From assembly GCA_016787895.1 (NCBI GenBank), contig JAEUTN010000014.1, forward strand, positions 930,001 through 994,000: 64,000 nt of DNA, read 5' to 3'. Source of the stretch: Bacteroidia bacterium (GTDB lineage: Bacteria > Bacteroidota > Bacteroidia > B-17B0 > Aurantibacillaceae). Within the stretch, counting starts at the first letter, position 1. Every line of letters starts with the position of its first letter. Positions 8,324 through 20,670 of the stretch are shown one piece after another. The notes under the pieces were generated by a model. That model did no database searches. It was not told where the DNA came from and saw nothing but the letters and a program-made list of their open reading frames with translations. The position numbers and the translations under genes are program-made.

Positions 8324-10204
8324 TCATTCCACCTTCACCATTCTCAGGTGGCGGGTTAAATTACCAGTGCTTATTTGCAGACTGTAAACACCTGCGTTTA
8401 AGAAAGAGGTATCCAAGGTGTTTTCACCCTGTAGCAAATGGCTTTGATACAGCTCTCGCCCACTTAAATCAAACACTTTTAATATACCTTCAAAAGCGCT
8501 TTCAATTTTTAATTCATTTACCACAGGGTTAGGATAAACCTTCCAGAGGCCAGCCGCTTCTAAATCTTCTATGCCTAAACAAGGGCTTACGTTCACAGTA
8601 AAGGTTTTGGATTGAGTACACCCGTTGGCTGTGGCTGAAACCGTATAAACGGTTGTTTGAGTGGGCTGAAGCGCCACGGCAGTTGCTGTAGAGCCTGTAC
8701 TCCACATATAAGTACTACCTCCGCTTACCGTATAATTGTACCTATCGCCTTTACAAATTAAAGTAGGGCCTGCAACAGCCGGTGTTGGGCCCATTGTAGT
8801 TATGTTCACTGCTTGCATTAAGGTGTCGTTTGTACAAGCGTTCAATAAAACCAATTTTACTGTGTACGTTCCCGGTGCTGCATAAAAGTGATTGGGACTA
8901 CTCTGGCTAGAGGTATTAGCCGTGCCTGAAGAAGGCTCCCCAAAATCCCATAAATAACCACTTGGGGGATAGAGTGTGCTGCTGCAACCACTGCTGAATG
9001 TTGGAACAGGAGGCGGAGAAAAATTGACCTGATTGCAGACAACGGTATTGGTAAAAGGCTGAAGCACGGGTTTGGAATATGGGTTTATGAAATTAGGGAG
9101 GCCGATTCCTGGGAATTTAGGCGCAATGCTCAATGAATTTAATGTAAATCCCATTGCGGCACCACTAGAATTAGGATTATGAATAACAGAAAGACTTTGT
9201 TGAGGCCCTGAAGTTAAATATATCTTGCCATCATTGCCTCTTTGAAGGGCTCCTGTGGATAAAAGTCCTATGTCAAACGAATACTGGGACGCAACTATGG
9301 CTGCACTTGAAGAGGCGCAAACATTCCATTGATAAATAATGGAATTTGTATTTCCAGAAGGGGCCATTGAACCGTAGAGTTTTGTCCCATCTGAAGAAAA
9401 AACAACACCGTAAGCATATGATTGGTTGTTCAGAAACACATAGTTATTCACTATTCCAGTGGCGGGATCGAAATCAAATAACTTAAAACCACTACTCCCC
9501 AAAGTTGTCGGAACAGAGTTGGTATAGGTTGCCGTTGCCAATTTCTTCCCATCAGGCGATATTTTCATTTCTCCCTGATTAGCTAAGGTGCTCCCTGTTA
9601 ATACATCTCCAACAGAGCTAATCACCGGACTCAAGTTTATTCCGTTACCATTTAATAAATATGCCCTGAAATTATTCGTTCCATTCTCATGACTTATATG
9701 CCAAACATCTCTGCCATTACAATGTCTTGCTAAAATTTGTTTTTCGCTACTAGTATTGTATATCAGGTTGTTCTTGGAGACTACCGACCCTGAACCAGCG
9801 GCTAGACTCATATCGACAATTGAATAGTAAAGATTCCCACCTAGCGCTTGGAGCGTAAAAACATAGTATAAGGAATTACTTCCAGGCAGTTTTATAGCGG
9901 TAACCGCTTGTGTCGTTGTTCCACCGCCACCAAATAAGCCGCTTCCATTTGCCATTAAAGCGTGACTAGAATTCCGAATAGTACTTCCATCAGAATAGAA
10001 TAATAGATTCCCAAGGTTATCGCAGATTGTAGCACACCCTTCAGGAGTAATCAAAGAACCGTTTAATACTGCTGCTGGTGGACTTGTGGAGAAATCTAAC
10101 CCTGCATAATTCCCAAAATACCAAAGTCTATTTTCGTTTTGAGCTACATAGTCGTGAACTATGAATAGCAAACTTAACAGAGCCGAATAGAAAACCTGTT
10201 TCAT
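8324..10204 (-). CDS. Secreted beta-propeller/PKD protein with T9SS type A sorting domain
   Basis: 626 residues from the start chosen here. A longer frame begins at 10285, but a classic signal peptide (MKQVFYSALLSLLF) begins at 10204. The first 370 residues carry repeated blades of the SPDGKKLA and SSDGTKLYG type, as in WD40-like secreted propellers. A PKD-like domain follows (YLWDFGEP to VNIT), then an Ig-like segment and a C-terminal sorting domain starting at VYPNP. It is predicted to cross the outer membrane by the type IX system. It stands alone, flanked by two copies of the palindromic repeat. Ligand or activity is not evident. Confidence 0.85.
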   Translation of the reverse strand: MKQVFYSALLSLLFIVHDYVAQNENRLWYFGNYAGLDFSTSPPAAVLNGSLITPEGCATICDNLGNLLFYSDGSTIRNSSHALMANGSGLFGGGGTTTQAVTAIKLPGSNSLYYVFTLQALGGNLYYSIVDMSLAAGSGSVVSKNNLIYNTSSEKQILARHCNGRDVWHISHENGTNNFRAYLLNGNGINLSPVISSVGDVLTGSTLANQGEMKISPDGKKLATATYTNSVPTTLGSSGFKLFDFDPATGIVNNYVFLNNQSYAYGVVFSSDGTKLYGSMAPSGNTNSIIYQWNVCASSSAAIVASQYSFDIGLLSTGALQRGNDGKIYLTSGPQQSLSVIHNPNSSGAAMGFTLNSLSIAPKFPGIGLPNFINPYSKPVLQPFTNTVVCNQVNFSPPPVPTFSSGCSSTLYPPSGYLWDFGEPSSGTANTSSQSSPNHFYAAPGTYTVKLVLLNACTNDTLMQAVNITTMGPTPAVAGPTLICKGDRYNYTVSGGSTYMWSTGSTATAVALQPTQTTVYTVSATANGCTQSKTFTVNVSPCLGIEDLEAAGLWKVYPNPVVNELKIESAFEGILKVFDLSGRELYQSHLLQGENTLDTSFLNAGVYSLQISTGNLTRHLRMVKVE

Positions 10205-10358
10205 AGTATGATTAGATGTTTCAAGATAGTGAATTAATTTGTTTTGCTGCTCGTTGAGGCCCAACTTGGCAAAAGCTGTCAGCAAGCTAAAAATCCATAC
10301 TCTGCAACGTTAAATTTACTTTTAGATGGCTTCGGCTCCGATGTGCTTCGAAATGCTT

Positions 10359-10431: not shown

Positions 10432-11520
10432 TTACCCCACCTCCGCCTCAGCCGGTGTAGCATTGCGTATGGCCACCTGCTGCGCCACACTTTGGGCTAA
10501 CTTCATAAACTCTTCGCTCAATGCTGTGTTCTCTTGCAACACGGCAGGGTGCCCTGCATCAGAAGCTTCGCGTATACTTTGTATCAATGGAATTTGTGCC
10601 AATAGGGGCAGGTGCATTTCTTCGGCCATATGTTTCACTCCATCTTTCCCAAAAATATAATATTTGTTTTCAGGCAATTCAGCCGGTGTAAACCAGGCCA
10701 TGTTTTCCACCAATCCGAGTATGGGCACTTTTATTTGAGGAATCTGAAACAAAGCAATGCCTTTTCTTGCGTCGGACAAGGCCACCTCTTGCGGGGTACA
10801 AACAATAACAGCACCTGTCAATGGAATCTGCGAACACAAAGAAATCTGAACATCGCCGGTACCCGGAGGCAGGTCAACAATCAAATAATCGAGCTCACCC
10901 CACACCGTATCGTGAAACAACTGCAATAAGGCTTTTGTGGCCATAGGTCCACGCAAGGCAATCACCTGACCCGGACCTGACATTAAACCAATGGAATTCA
11001 GTTTTACCCCATAACTTTCAACCGGCGCCATTTTACGTTGTCCGTTAAATTCGGCTGAACCCGGACTTTCCTGTCCCAATCCAAACATGATGTGCTGGGA
11101 AGGGCCGTAAATGTCAGCATCCACCAATCCTACCTTAGCGCCCAGTTTTGCTAAACCAAGGGCAAGGTTGGCGGAGATGGTGCTTTTACCAACTCCTCCT
11201 TTTCCGCTGGCCACGGCAATAATGTTTTTTACATCACGCAGGGTGGTTTCATCTTTTTCCTTTTTACTGGTCACGTTTGAAGACATGTTGGCCATTACTA
11301 CCGCGTCCTTATCCACAAAATGTTTGATGGCATTGATACAGGCCTTTTGTATCATGTCTTTCATAGGACAGGCCGGAGTCGTAAGAACTACGGTAAAGGA
11401 AATATTTTTGCCTTCCACCTTCACGTCTTTGATCATGTTGAGTGTTACAAGATCTTTTTTAAGATCAGGATCGTCAACGTATTTTAAGGCATCCAGTACC
11501 TGTTGAATAGAAATTTCCAT
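10432..11520 (-). CDS. Mrp/NBP35 family iron-sulfur cluster carrier ATPase
   Basis: 362 residues, cytoplasmic. The family delivers iron-sulfur clusters to apoproteins. A DUF59/MIP18 domain (1-90, with the TTPACPMKDM motif) precedes the P-loop domain, whose deviant Walker A SGKGGVGKST is at 105-114. The DLPPGTGD motif and the LVENMAWF segment are also present. After the last motif most family members have CxxC, which binds the cluster at the dimer interface. Here the segment reads TPAELPENKYYIFG with no cysteine. I believe this is common in the phylum. It lies 22 nt after the small lipoprotein gene upstream, so the two may be co-transcribed. Confidence 0.92.
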   Translation of the reverse strand: MEISIQQVLDALKYVDDPDLKKDLVTLNMIKDVKVEGKNISFTVVLTTPACPMKDMIQKACINAIKHFVDKDAVVMANMSSNVTSKKEKDETTLRDVKNIIAVASGKGGVGKSTISANLALGLAKLGAKVGLVDADIYGPSQHIMFGLGQESPGSAEFNGQRKMAPVESYGVKLNSIGLMSGPGQVIALRGPMATKALLQLFHDTVWGELDYLIVDLPPGTGDVQISLCSQIPLTGAVIVCTPQEVALSDARKGIALFQIPQIKVPILGLVENMAWFTPAELPENKYYIFGKDGVKHMAEEMHLPLLAQIPLIQSIREASDAGHPAVLQENTALSEEFMKLAQSVAQQVAIRNATPAEAEVG

Positions 11521-11542: not shown

Positions 11543-11824
11543 TTAGTGATTGTGTACTTCGCCCGGAGCATGGGTATGTGTGGGGGCGGGAGTAACAGGG
11601 GCTACAGGAGCCATGGTGGTTGGGCTGGTGCCTGGCACAGCCTGCATGGGTGCCGGACCTTCGGCCTCAGCCATTTGCATGCGAATAACATTGGCAATGG
11701 AATCCTGAACCTGTTTGGAGCGCGACATCATCATGGAGCGGTCTTCGGCAGCCGGACCGCAGGAAGAAAAAGCCAAAAAGCCAAAGGCCAAAAGCCAAAA
11801 AGAAAGTACGAAAGATCTGGTCAT
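11543..11824 (-). CDS. Small lipoprotein, paralogue of the next gene
   Basis: 93 residues from the ATG at 11824, which begins a lipoprotein signal (TRSFVLSFWLLAFGFLAF) with lipobox FSSC. A longer frame starts 27 nt earlier but spoils the signal. The mature protein begins CGPAAEDRS, has a helix with KQVQDSIANVIRMQ, then a Pro/Ala/Thr-rich tail ending in a histidine-rich HTHAPGEVHNH that might bind metal. The CGPxAE start and QDSIA helix recur in the upstream gene, so the two arose by duplication. Function unknown. Confidence 0.75.
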   Translation of the reverse strand: MTRSFVLSFWLLAFGFLAFSSCGPAAEDRSMMMSRSKQVQDSIANVIRMQMAEAEGPAPMQAVPGTSPTTMAPVAPVTPAPTHTHAPGEVHNH

Positions 11825-11922: not shown

Positions 11923-12156
11923 TTACTTTGTTTCTGCAGCAGGAGCAGCAGCAGTTTCAGTGCTAACAGCAGCTGAATCAGCAGGAGCAGCTTCAGTTGC
12001 AGCAGCTTCCATAGATTGGTTGATGGCAGCAGCAATAGAATCTTGCATGAATTTTGCTCTTTCTTCCATTTTAGCTTTTTCTTCAGCTGAAGGACCACAA
12101 GCAACAAAAGCAGTAGCTAAAACAGCTACGGCAACGATTGAGAATACTTTTTTCAT
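11923..12156 (-). CDS. Small Ala-rich lipoprotein
   Basis: 77 residues from the ATG at 12156 (MKKVFSIVAVAVLATAF with lipobox VAC). The mature part starts CGPSAEEKAK, forms a short charged helix ending FMQDSIAAAINQSM, and continues as an Ala/Glu/Thr-rich, probably disordered tail. It is a paralogue of the downstream gene at 11543-11824. It has its own terminator, which suggests strong expression. It is expected in the periplasm or at the outer membrane; function unknown. Confidence 0.75.
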   Translation of the reverse strand: MKKVFSIVAVAVLATAFVACGPSAEEKAKMEERAKFMQDSIAAAINQSMEAAATEAAPADSAAVSTETAAAPAAETK

Positions 12157-12327
12157 TTTTAGGTTTTTTGGTTGATTTACCATTTATACCCTAACTTGAA
12201 AGAAGTAACCCCATAAAACCGAAAAAAACCGAAAATACTTTATAATACACTGATTATCAGTAAATAAAATTTGTGGGCCGTGGGCTAAGAACAATTCAAC
12301 AGGGAATTCGGGCTGAATTTTTGCAGG

Positions 12328-12342
12328 TAAAGGTTACCTTTA
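12328..12342. promoter_or_regulatory. 15-bp palindrome upstream of the sigma factor gene
   Basis: TAAAGGT-T-ACCTTTA is a perfect inverted repeat 32 nt before the ATG of the ECF sigma factor. It contains a near match to the -7 box (TACCTTTA). It may be an operator or part of the promoter; this is inference from position and symmetry. Confidence 0.4.
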
Positions 12343-12374
12343 GTGAGAAATCGTATTAATCTAAACCGGGCCTT

Positions 12375-12974
12375 ATGTCAGTTTCCAAAGTGCAGTTCAG
12401 CGATGAAGAATTCATTGAAGGTTTGCGCAGCGGCAACAACGAAGTACTGAAGGCCTTGTATAAAAAGCATTTTCAACTCGTTCTTAAATTTATTGTAAAC
12501 AACAACGGTACCCAGGAGGCGGCCCAGGACATTTATCAGGAGTGTATTATTGTGCTCTATGAAAATGCTCAGGACCCCGGTTTTCAATTGCACTGCCAGT
12601 TGCACACCTACATCTATTCTGTAGCCAGAAGGTTGTGGTTAAAACAACTGAAAAAAGCCGGCAAAACCTTTTTGATGAAAGAAGATGAGGAAATGGATCT
12701 GGCAGATGTCAGCGAAGACCTTACCCAACATCTTCAAAAGGAAACTGACCTGGAAAAACTGAACACCAGCATGTCACAGTTGGGAGAGCCCTGCCAGAGT
12801 CTGATCCGCGATTTTTACGTGAACCGCCTCAGCATGGATGAGATCTCGGCAAAATTCGGTTACACCAATGCCGACAATGCAAAAAATCAGAAGTACAAAT
12901 GTTTACAACGGTTGAAGAAATTCTTTTTTAATACAACAGGTGGAGTTGAACAAACGCAGAGACTAGAACTATGA
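12375..12974 (+). CDS. ECF-type RNA polymerase sigma factor
   Basis: 199 residues. Region 2 lies at about 25-90 (LYKKHFQLVLKF, with DIYQECIIVLYEN) and region 4 at about 135-185 (LSMDEISAKFGY then a basic LKK segment). No region 1.1 or 3 is seen, so it is of the extracytoplasmic-function class. Its stop codon overlaps the start of the following membrane protein (ATGA, 12971-12974). This coupling is typical of a sigma factor with its anti-sigma factor. The signal it answers is unknown. Confidence 0.9.
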   Translation: MSVSKVQFSDEEFIEGLRSGNNEVLKALYKKHFQLVLKFIVNNNGTQEAAQDIYQECIIVLYENAQDPGFQLHCQLHTYIYSVARRLWLKQLKKAGKTFLMKEDEEMDLADVSEDLTQHLQKETDLEKLNTSMSQLGEPCQSLIRDFYVNRLSMDEISAKFGYTNADNAKNQKYKCLQRLKKFFFNTTGGVEQTQRLEL

Positions 12975-14065
12975 ACATTGTAGAAACATTCGACAGTTAC
13001 TTAAACAATACCCTCCGGGCTGAGGAGAAAAAAGCGTTTGAGAGCCGTTTGCAACAGGATGCTGTATTTGCAAAAGCCTTTCATGAGCACAAAACCCTTG
13101 TGGACACCATGGCCCAATCGGCCAAACGCGAGAACTTCAAACAAAAGCTGAACAACATTCACAAAGAACTTTTCGGAGAGAACACCAAAATTATTTCCAT
13201 GGTGCGCGAAAACAGTTTTGCGCAGCGCCATGGCAGAACCATTGCGGTGGCTGCGAGTACAGCCCTGGTAGCCGTGTTGGCCACTGTTGCGGCTTTAAGT
13301 ACAGGAGGGTATCTGCTTAAAAAGCAAAACAACGAAATCCTGGAATTAAAACGCAATGTAATGGAATTGAAATACTCCAACGATGGCATTGTGGAAGGCA
13401 TTACCAAGAAAAAAACCAAAACCGTTTACGCTCCGGCAAATTTGGAAGGCAGTGCATTTGCCCTGAACAACCGGGGCTACATTGTCACCAGTTACCACAT
13501 GGTAAAATCGGCCGACAGTGTGTTTATACAAAATGAAAACACTGAGCGCAGCCATGCCAAAGTGGTTTACACCGATGAGGCCATTGACCTGGCCATACTT
13601 AAATTAGACAATACCAATGTTGCCGAAAACTGGCAAGTGCCCTATGGTTTAAAAAACAAAACCGCTGAGATAGGCGAAAAAGTGTTTACCCTGGGTTATC
13701 CCCGTTCCGATGTGGTGTATGGAGAGGGTGCCCTAAGTTCCATGAGCGGATACTCCGGCGATACCAGCATGTACCAGATTTCTATTCCTGTAAACCCGGG
13801 AAACAGTGGGGGTCCGCTGTTGGATGAGCAGGGAAACATCGTGGGAGTCATCAAAGGCAAGATAACAGGAGCAGAAGCAACAGGTTTTGCCATGAAAGCC
13901 AACCAAATTTTGCGTTCTTTGGACCAAAATGCCTCAGATTCTCTCAAAACGGAGTTGCTTACCCCAATTTCCAGGAAACAAACACTTCGTAATTTAAAAC
14001 GATCGGAACAGGTGAAGCGCATCAACCCTTACGTATTTAACGTATTGGTTTACAAAGCCGACTAA
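12971..14065 (+). CDS. Membrane protein joining an anti-sigma-like segment to an HtrA-type serine protease
   Basis: 364 residues. Residues 1-80 are a charged helical cytoplasmic segment of the kind found in anti-sigma factors of this phylum (MNIVETFDSYLNNTL, AEEKKAFE). One membrane segment (about 89-114) and a short coiled coil (117-135) follow. Residues 150-320 are a trypsin-fold protease with an intact triad: H176 in VTSYHMV, D207 in DLAIL and S279 in PGNSGGPL. No PDZ domain is seen. The topology puts the protease in the periplasm and the N-terminus next to the sigma factor, to which it is translationally coupled. The architecture suggests an anti-sigma factor with its own sensing or self-cleaving protease. 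The anti-sigma role is inferred; the protease domain is clear. Confidence 0.85.
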   Translation: MNIVETFDSYLNNTLRAEEKKAFESRLQQDAVFAKAFHEHKTLVDTMAQSAKRENFKQKLNNIHKELFGENTKIISMVRENSFAQRHGRTIAVAASTALVAVLATVAALSTGGYLLKKQNNEILELKRNVMELKYSNDGIVEGITKKKTKTVYAPANLEGSAFALNNRGYIVTSYHMVKSADSVFIQNENTERSHAKVVYTDEAIDLAILKLDNTNVAENWQVPYGLKNKTAEIGEKVFTLGYPRSDVVYGEGALSSMSGYSGDTSMYQISIPVNPGNSGGPLLDEQGNIVGVIKGKITGAEATGFAMKANQILRSLDQNASDSLKTELLTPISRKQTLRNLKRSEQVKRINPYVFNVLVYKAD

Positions 14066-18385: not shown

Positions 18386-20593
18386 CTATTCCAGAACAAG
18401 TTTTTTCAAGACGCTTGTTGAACCATTGCTTAGCCTCAGTAAATACAGGCCTTTTGGCAAAGTGCTGATATCAATAAATGTATTGCCCGCAACTGCTTCA
18501 TTGGCATAAACCTCTTTACCCTCTGTATTAAAAACACTCACCTGAAACTCCAGGGGTTCATTGCCTTTAATGCTGATCAGCCCTTTGCTTGGATTGGGAT
18601 ACACCTCAAAATCCTCATTCACTTGTAAATTACTTAGGCCAACTTCAAACATATTAATTACAGTGTAGGCCGTATCTTCAAAACAAGGATGGGTAGCAAT
18701 CAATTGAACCGTATAACTGCCATTGTTGTTGTAGCTTACCGTAGGACTGGGAGAAGAGCTGTTCTGTCCGTTCCCGAAATCCCAAAAATAGCTTACGTTG
18801 AGTGTGGAAGTGGTGTTGAAAGAAACACTCACACCATTTACGGTATGTGTGAATGCGGCGATGCCGGCGATGTTCAGAGAATTATAAGCCGTATCGCTGA
18901 TGCCTTCACTCAAATTGTAATACGAGCCACTTGCTGTGTTTTCAAGTTTCATGGCCCGCACCAGGTACTCGTGAACGCCTTTGATGATTAGACAGGAATC
19001 CGTGTAGGAATTCCCTGTAATGAGTTGGGCATTAATGCGGGTGTATTCAGTCACACTGTCGTTGCGAACATAAAGGTGGTACCCTAAAACACTGTTGTCG
19101 GTACTGCTGGTCCAGCTTATGTTGCAGTTGTTTCCATTTACCGTTGCTATCACATTTGAAACCGGAGCTACCACATCATTTCTCAAAGTAGGATCTCCCA
19201 TCAGGGCATTGTGTATCCATTTACCGCTGATGCCTACAGAGCTGGCGTAATACAAATTGCCGGGATTGTTTTGAGTCATCCGCAAACCGTAGCCAATAGT
19301 TTCACCAAGGCCCATGTGGTGCAGTTGATAATGGGGCCGGCCCGACCAGAGGTTGGTGAGAATTTTTCCCTGAGCCAGGGGTGCCCTCAAAAAATTATTC
19401 TGCGAATCCCAATCTCCAAAATAGGAACCAAACAACATGGTAAACACGCCCTGTAAATTGGTAGTGCTGAGCGTTGCGGTGTTGCCAATGCCCCCGGCGC
19501 TTGTATAACTGCCTCCTCCGCATCCGTAGGACCATTGATAGGAAGTACCGTTCATGCTGGTAAGATAATCGGCCACTACTATACTGGAAGTTCCAACCAA
19601 TGGCGAAAAATTTTTGTAGGCGCTGGCAGCAAAGGCTTCTCCTGAGAAATAGCCAAAATTATCATCAATTACGGCCTGTTTAACGGGCACTAGTATTTTC
19701 TTTCGGTACTCATGATCTTTGTCGAGATAATTTTTGAGCAATTGTTCTTCCGTTAATGTAAAAGCCGGAAGGTTATAAAAATCAACACGTCCTACCTGCA
19801 ACTCCGTTTCTCCGGGAATAAGACTTTGATCAAATTTACCGTCCCCGGGAACATTGTGGTGACGCGATGAAGAAGCACTTGTGGAGTTAACGGAAACATC
19901 TGTCCAAACCCCATCCATATCTCCATAAAACACGTCGGCCGGCCAGGCGCCCAGATGGTCGGGGTGCCCATCGGGGTTAATGTTGCCGCTGTATGGCACA
20001 GGAACCCGGCCAAGTAAAAAAACGGCTTTGGTATTTTGAGGATCCTTGTTATAAATGGATTTAATGCCTGCTTTTACGGTGTCCACCAAAGCAGTTCGGC
20101 TCACATAAAGGCGAAGCACGGTCCATCCATCCCCTTCCATGTCTTTGATCAAACGGGTGATTTCAGGGGCCAGTGAAACCAGGAAAGTGCTGTCGACGAC
20201 CAGAATCAATTTTCCCCTGTAGTCGGTAGCCGGCACTTCGATTCCGGAATTGATGTATCCAAAACCAGTGTAACCACTACCTGCGCGAACAAGCCTGTAT
20301 TCGTAATTGCTTCCCGCATTTACGGTATTATCTGCAAATAGTGTGGTAGTGCCATTGAGTGTGGCTAAAGGGGTTCCCCAGGTAGTGGCAGTTTTAAGTT
20401 TTCTGAACACCTGATATTGAGAAGTGGTTGCATTGCCGGGCCAGCTCAGGGAAATTTGTGCAGGGGAATTTTGCACCGTGGCGGTGAGCCGAACCGCGGC
20501 ATCGGCTGCAGTTTGTGATTGTGTAGTTAAAACTATCAAACCCGACAAAAGGAAGGTGAGAAGGCAGTTTGATTTGAAATTAAAAATTGACAT
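18386..20593 (-). CDS. Secreted C25-peptidase-like protein with T9SS type A sorting domain
   Basis: 735 residues from the last of three consecutive ATGs (20591-20599); a longer frame begins at 20629. After the signal peptide (FNFKSNCLLTFLLSG) comes an FN3-like domain. A region of about 350 residues follows with features of gingipain-type (C25) folds: GKLILVVDSTFL, AVFLLGRVPVP, LQVGRVDFYN and a closing ALMGDPTLRN. The usual GHG motif that gives the catalytic His appears as LFGSYFGDWD, so catalysis is doubtful. A second FN3, a PKD-like domain (YFWDFGNGQNSSS) and a sorting domain from VYPNP complete it. Convergent with rpoN, 3 nt apart. Confidence 0.8.
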   Translation of the reverse strand: MSIFNFKSNCLLTFLLSGLIVLTTQSQTAADAAVRLTATVQNSPAQISLSWPGNATTSQYQVFRKLKTATTWGTPLATLNGTTTLFADNTVNAGSNYEYRLVRAGSGYTGFGYINSGIEVPATDYRGKLILVVDSTFLVSLAPEITRLIKDMEGDGWTVLRLYVSRTALVDTVKAGIKSIYNKDPQNTKAVFLLGRVPVPYSGNINPDGHPDHLGAWPADVFYGDMDGVWTDVSVNSTSASSSRHHNVPGDGKFDQSLIPGETELQVGRVDFYNLPAFTLTEEQLLKNYLDKDHEYRKKILVPVKQAVIDDNFGYFSGEAFAASAYKNFSPLVGTSSIVVADYLTSMNGTSYQWSYGCGGGSYTSAGGIGNTATLSTTNLQGVFTMLFGSYFGDWDSQNNFLRAPLAQGKILTNLWSGRPHYQLHHMGLGETIGYGLRMTQNNPGNLYYASSVGISGKWIHNALMGDPTLRNDVVAPVSNVIATVNGNNCNISWTSSTDNSVLGYHLYVRNDSVTEYTRINAQLITGNSYTDSCLIIKGVHEYLVRAMKLENTASGSYYNLSEGISDTAYNSLNIAGIAAFTHTVNGVSVSFNTTSTLNVSYFWDFGNGQNSSSPSPTVSYNNNGSYTVQLIATHPCFEDTAYTVINMFEVGLSNLQVNEDFEVYPNPSKGLISIKGNEPLEFQVSVFNTEGKEVYANEAVAGNTFIDISTLPKGLYLLRLSNGSTSVLKKLVLE

Positions 20594-20670
20594 CATCATA
20601 TAACGAAATGGAATAAAAACGGTAAACAAATCGTATGGTGCTTAAACGCCGTAATTCGGTAAGTTCAGGC

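Follow-up and report, generated by a model that had tools for sequence, protein, structure and literature searches.

The window, by which we mean the whole 64,000-nt stretch of DNA analysed here, contains on its forward strand an ECF sigma factor gene followed by an overlapping gene for a membrane protein, in which a presumed cytoplasmic anti-sigma domain is joined through one membrane helix to a periplasmic serine protease domain (Table 1). The coordinates, open reading frames and ATGA overlap assigned to this pair in an earlier sequence-only reading were correct on checking. The first product, about 200 aa long and containing sigma-70 regions 2 and 4, belongs to the ECF group; its match to TIGR02937 extends over residues 25-182 with 65.8 bits (cut-off 42.9), and when structures were compared, sigma chains were recovered for both of its domains. 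A small lipoprotein gene is divergent to the pair, and a second one (11543-11824, minus strand) follows it on the same strand with a similar sequence (CGPxAExxxM...QDSIA); the same pair of small lipoprotein genes is found in relatives. Near the module there is also a gene for an Mrp/ApbC-type ATPase (10432-11520, minus strand), and two large secreted-looking proteins are encoded at 8324-10285 and 18386-20629 (both minus strand), whose C-terminal tails resemble, by eye, sorting signals of type IX secretion.

Table 1. Features of the sigma factor/fusion protein module and its divergent neighbour (positions in the window).
Feature	Position	Strand	Remarks
ECF sigma factor gene	12375..12974	+	199 aa; TIGR02937 E 3.4e-18, Pfam Sigma70_r2 E 1.8e-7
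Anti-sigma/protease fusion gene (anti-sigma role predicted)	12971..14065	+	364 aa; ATGA overlap with sigma gene at 12971-12974
Presumed anti-sigma domain, cytoplasmic residues 1-76	12971..13198	+	three predicted helices; NF052375 match
Membrane helix, about residues 91-109	13241..13297	+	hydropathy peak at residue 91
Ala94-Ala95, start of membrane helix	13250..13255	+	invariant 72/72; presumed RseP site and ClpXP end
S1C serine protease domain, residues 156-320, periplasmic	13436..13930	+	Trypsin_2; DegS/HtrA fold
Catalytic codons	H176 13496-13498; D206 13586-13588; S279 13805-13807	+	triad 72/72
C-terminal tail LKRxEQxKRINPYVFNVxVY, residues 341-361	13991..14053	+	conserved; helix and strand in model
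Predicted sigma-dependent promoter GGTTAC-N15-GTATTAA of sigma operon	12332..12359	+	autoregulation (predicted)
Predicted sigma-dependent promoter GGTTAC-N15-GTATAAA of divergent lipoprotein gene	12183..12210	-	
Divergent small lipoprotein gene	11923..12156	-	77 aa, MKKVFSIV...FVACGPSAEEK

The periplasmic trypsin-fold domain proposed for the membrane protein was borne out as an S1C, DegS-like domain. The 364-aa product matches Pfam Trypsin_2 with an E value of 2.5e-22, and the protease domain, which is confidently modelled by AlphaFold, matches DegS/HtrA proteases with Z of about 19-20, among them 2qf3 (rmsd 2.4 over 164 residues); a trypsin-like fold with a His-Asp-Ser triad places it among the HtrA/S1C proteases. 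The triad had been read as H176, D207 and S279, and both the intactness of the triad and two of these positions stand, but the aspartate is D206, one residue away. In all 72 full-length sequences collected, H176, D206, S279, G277, G280 and P282 are invariant, the oxyanion glycine included. Because the triad, G277 and G280 have been retained while family identity to the window protein falls to 28%, selection for catalysis is indicated, and the domain is very probably an active protease; the occurrence of the triad in every sequence rules out a pseudoprotease as a general explanation. No match to a PDZ domain was found in the fusion protein with Pfam, and therefore the DegS mode of sensing cannot apply to it. 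Consistent with a protein outside the DegS family, the DegS model TIGR02038 gave 62 bits against a cut-off of 423, with the match confined to the protease domain. Of the NCBIfam models, the MarP model NF033740 matched the protease part best (E 8.5e-27), but at 94 bits against a cut-off of 250, which likewise falls outside membership. Two further HtrA-like proteases are encoded in the genome from which the window comes.

A search for the same fusion in other genomes had been suggested, and we have found it to be widespread in Bacteroidia. A single-sequence search for related loci gave one close relative only. A full-length copy was present in 36 of 36 other genomes of the genus (first sample) and copies were found in genomes of other families too; when 295 genomes of the class were searched with a profile, 43 had a full-length fusion, spread over ten families. 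The distinct full-length homologues collected number 72, from 10 families of the one class, and these rule out a chance fusion or an assembly error. A phylum-level search gave hits from Bacteroidia only, every genome listed for it being of this class, so that the result does not address other classes. Protease-only relatives (12 loci, about 350-570 aa) have the protease domain in common with the fusion and are without an ECF neighbour; no homologue of the window sigma factor was next door to those examined, and several of them also have the conserved C-terminal tail. In our literature search there was no description of an ECF-paired anti-sigma/S1C protease fusion, though it may have been mentioned before.

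The pairing of the two genes, which the sequence-only reading had drawn from one locus, turned out to be a genuine conserved unit. An ECF gene lies directly upstream of every full-length fusion homologue whose contig reaches far enough, and the single fusion without one is accounted for by its position at a contig end. In profile searches of the 295 genomes, the fusion and one sigma subgroup co-occur one-to-one (42/43, the exception being the contig-end fusion). When the search was reversed with the sigma profile, the hits formed two groups separated by a gap in score (227 vs 205 bits), and the top 42 were the neighbours of the 43 fusions. From this comparative evidence, we regard a conserved sigma partnership of the fusion protein as almost certain.

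Like class I anti-sigma factors, the fusion protein is encoded beside its cognate ECF gene. For Bacteroidota, the share of ECFs reported to have a class I anti-sigma domain as neighbour is only 6% (PMC7406223). About 90 residues precede its membrane helix, and AlphaFold on 39 orthologues predicted three N-terminal helices in all (residues 3-11, 17-29 and 31-68; pLDDT about 85-92). Whereas class I domains consist of a three-helix bundle and, behind a linker, a fourth helix (PMC7406223), the model of the fusion has three helices, of which the third is long (38 residues). The N-terminus matches the NCBIfam anti-sigma model NF052375 with an E value of 1.3e-5, a score under the curated cut-off, and among 35 family members this kind of match to the NCBIfam anti-sigma model was obtained for 11, again with scores under curated cut-offs; the N-terminal profile, searched against PDB sequences, retrieved unrelated helical proteins only. 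At 15 of 20 sister ECF loci that we read, the downstream gene encodes a membrane protein with a fusion-type N-terminus (E 5.6e-16 to 2.4e-8 against the profile of the fusion N-terminus, in a small ORF set), and these 15 proteins have different periplasmic regions with no GxSGG-type serine-protease motif. At the sister loci the same N-terminal domain is thus combined with varied periplasmic parts of 198-681 aa, and scanning of five of these parts gave no Pfam match. The N-terminus, which had been called anti-sigma-like, therefore behaves as a sigma-coupled module of anti-sigma type, and an anti-sigma function of the fusion protein is highly probable, with the N-terminus presumably binding the sigma factor. 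We have also modelled the sigma factor and the N-terminus as a read-through, built from loci where both frames are in register, and obtained a confident model (pTM 0.78). The closest PDB matches of this model include chains of AlgU-MucA, BldN-RsbN and sigmaE-RseA, but the two sigma domains together superpose poorly on the known complexes (rmsd about 8-14), and therefore we draw no inference from it on the geometry of sigma/N-terminus binding.

The one membrane helix claimed earlier was recovered as a single strongly hydrophobic helix. Around the Ala-Ala pair at its start the most common reading is VAAS (40/72), and Ala-Ala of any kind near the helix start is found in 7 of 15 sister proteins, against 72 of 72 fusions. 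The pair resembles VAAC at 106-109 of E. coli RseA, located at the membrane helix, where RseP cuts between 108 and 109 (PMC6963605), and XAA motifs serve ClpXP in RsgI factors (PMC12203970). An RseP orthologue is present in the genome of the window. These observations support site-2 cleavage by RseP at Ala94-Ala95, and the fusion protein may be processed by RseP and then by ClpXP. Beyond the helix, the coiled coil that had been proposed corresponds to a helix modelled at residues 116-135 with pLDDT below 50, and this part of the proposal is therefore weak. The linker, about 34-55 residues long, is poorly defined in the AlphaFold model, and a conserved site for cleavage was looked for in it without success. 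This result is compatible with the relaxed specificity of HtrA-type enzymes, but self-cleavage stays a hypothesis.

A predicted promoter motif accompanies the module in other genomes. The sequence-only reading had noticed neither this motif nor the divergent lipoprotein gene nor the invariant Ala-Ala. In its relaxed form it was found in 55 of 69 sigma upstream regions (24/32 outside the genus set), while base shuffles gave 0.02 on average, and a genus scan detected a match in 39 of 40 genomes. A divergent small lipoprotein gene adjoins 59 of 67 sigma loci, in comparison with 0 of 18 control loci, and 26 of these 59 genes have a motif-type site within 110 nt upstream. The genes behind motif sites are the sigma operon, the divergent small lipoprotein gene, and genes for a DUF4349 lipoprotein and a coiled-coil lipoprotein, with a DUF2459 protein gene in one genome. 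Since the motif stands before lipoprotein genes, the output of the sigma factor likely includes envelope lipoproteins, as far as predicted promoters can tell. In the window's genome, a one-mismatch search for further targets gave 9 hits vs 7 for a reversed control pattern, and therefore our claim for that genome is confined to the two sites on either side of the module. The DUF4349 lipoprotein, which has a C-terminal membrane helix and whose gene has the promoter motif in many of the genomes of the genus (11 loci), was not found in the window's genome by a search that had no positive control, and upstream of the 287-aa lipoprotein orthologue in that genome there is no matching promoter site. 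In one distant relative a gene similar to the Mrp/ApbC-type one occupies the divergent position beside the sigma gene, and the small lipoprotein was not detected.

The envelope stress response that is known best, that of E. coli sigmaE, has the anti-sigma factor RseA and the protease DegS as separate proteins; DegS makes the site-1 cut in RseA and senses outer-membrane proteins by its PDZ domain. The present module resembles the sigmaE-RseA-DegS-RseP system in having an ECF sigma factor, a membrane-anchored protein of presumed anti-sigma function, a periplasmic S1C protease and an RseP orthologue. It differs from that system in that the fusion is without the PDZ domain that DegS has, its N-terminus shows no detectable similarity to RseA, and there is no RseB gene beside the fusion gene. 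MarP is similar in being a membrane-anchored periplasmic S1 protease without PDZ, and to our knowledge it has neither an anti-sigma N-terminus nor a sigma partner. The anti-sigma factor RsgI9 of Clostridium thermocellum crosses the membrane with one helix and bears an S1C peptidase-like domain on the extracellular side (PMC12203970), so that the attachment of an S1C-type domain to an anti-sigma factor has in part a precedent. However, it belongs to the SigI/RsgI family, not to the ECF systems, and is an orphan without its own sigma gene. Its autocleaving periplasmic domain is a separate one, and the S1C-like domain has been described as polysaccharide-binding. Pfam and NCBIfam scans gave no RsgI-type match in the fusion protein, whose partner is an ECF factor, and it is accordingly placed outside the RsgI family. 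The Dma anti-sigma factors of Bacteroides, which act with ECF21, are also envelope-linked membrane proteins encoded beside an ECF gene (PMC13088901), but they span both membranes, end in a beta-barrel and have no protease domain.

We consider the chances about even that the fusion acts as an anti-sigma factor, spanning the inner membrane once, with a built-in site-1 protease, an intact S1C enzyme without PDZ. At rest, the cytoplasmic N-terminus would hold the sigma factor. A signal, presumably from the envelope and perhaps the misfolded envelope proteins suggested earlier, would activate the attached protease, in cis or across neighbouring copies, and the protease would cut the flexible linker outside the membrane, this being the site-1 cut. 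RseP would then cut the shortened protein at the Ala-Ala pair with which the membrane helix begins. This cut would expose an xAA end to ClpXP, which would remove the rest and free the sigma factor. From GGTTAC-N15-GTATTAA promoters, the sigma factor would transcribe its own operon as well as genes for envelope lipoproteins. Self-cleavage as the trigger is a step to which we would give at best an even chance.

The protease may instead perform quality control mainly on other envelope proteins without self-cutting, while the anti-sigma part reads the protease load or the site-1 cut is left to another protease. The linker without a conserved cleavage site would suit such a role, HtrA-type proteases are generally quality-control enzymes, and two more HtrA-like proteases exist in the genome; but there would be no need for every member to have the protease fused to the anti-sigma part if the substrates were elsewhere, and a protease tethered beside a linker of 34-55 residues is well placed to cut it, and so we hold this explanation to be rather unlikely. 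It is improbable that the protease fold chiefly binds a ligand with catalysis being incidental, an idea suggested by RsgI9, whose S1C peptidase-like domain has been described as able to bind cellulose (PMC12203970), because the catalytic residues with G277 and G280 would hardly have stayed invariant across so divergent a set of 72 sequences. More improbable still is an envelope protease that is merely co-made with and regulated by the sigma factor and has no anti-sigma role: the anti-sigma matches lying under curated cut-offs would agree with it, but the part common to the proteins downstream of 15 of the 20 sister ECFs is the N-terminal domain and not the protease, the co-occurrence with one sigma subgroup is one-to-one, and the roughly 90 residues ahead of the membrane helix also speak against it.

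Brake and protease, which are separate in E. coli, thus appear to be joined in one chain in many Bacteroidia. As a tentative general reading, which may well prove incorrect, these proteins would be single-chain anti-sigma receptors with their own site-1 protease, widespread in Bacteroidia, that start regulated intramembrane proteolysis by cutting themselves and are coupled to a dedicated promoter and to a small lipoprotein, perhaps their signal or their output. If this is true, the conserved single-chain family would be a compact form of the RseA/DegS-type circuit and would give Bacteroidota an envelope-stress pathway, and the predicted promoter and lipoprotein targets would make its regulon directly testable.
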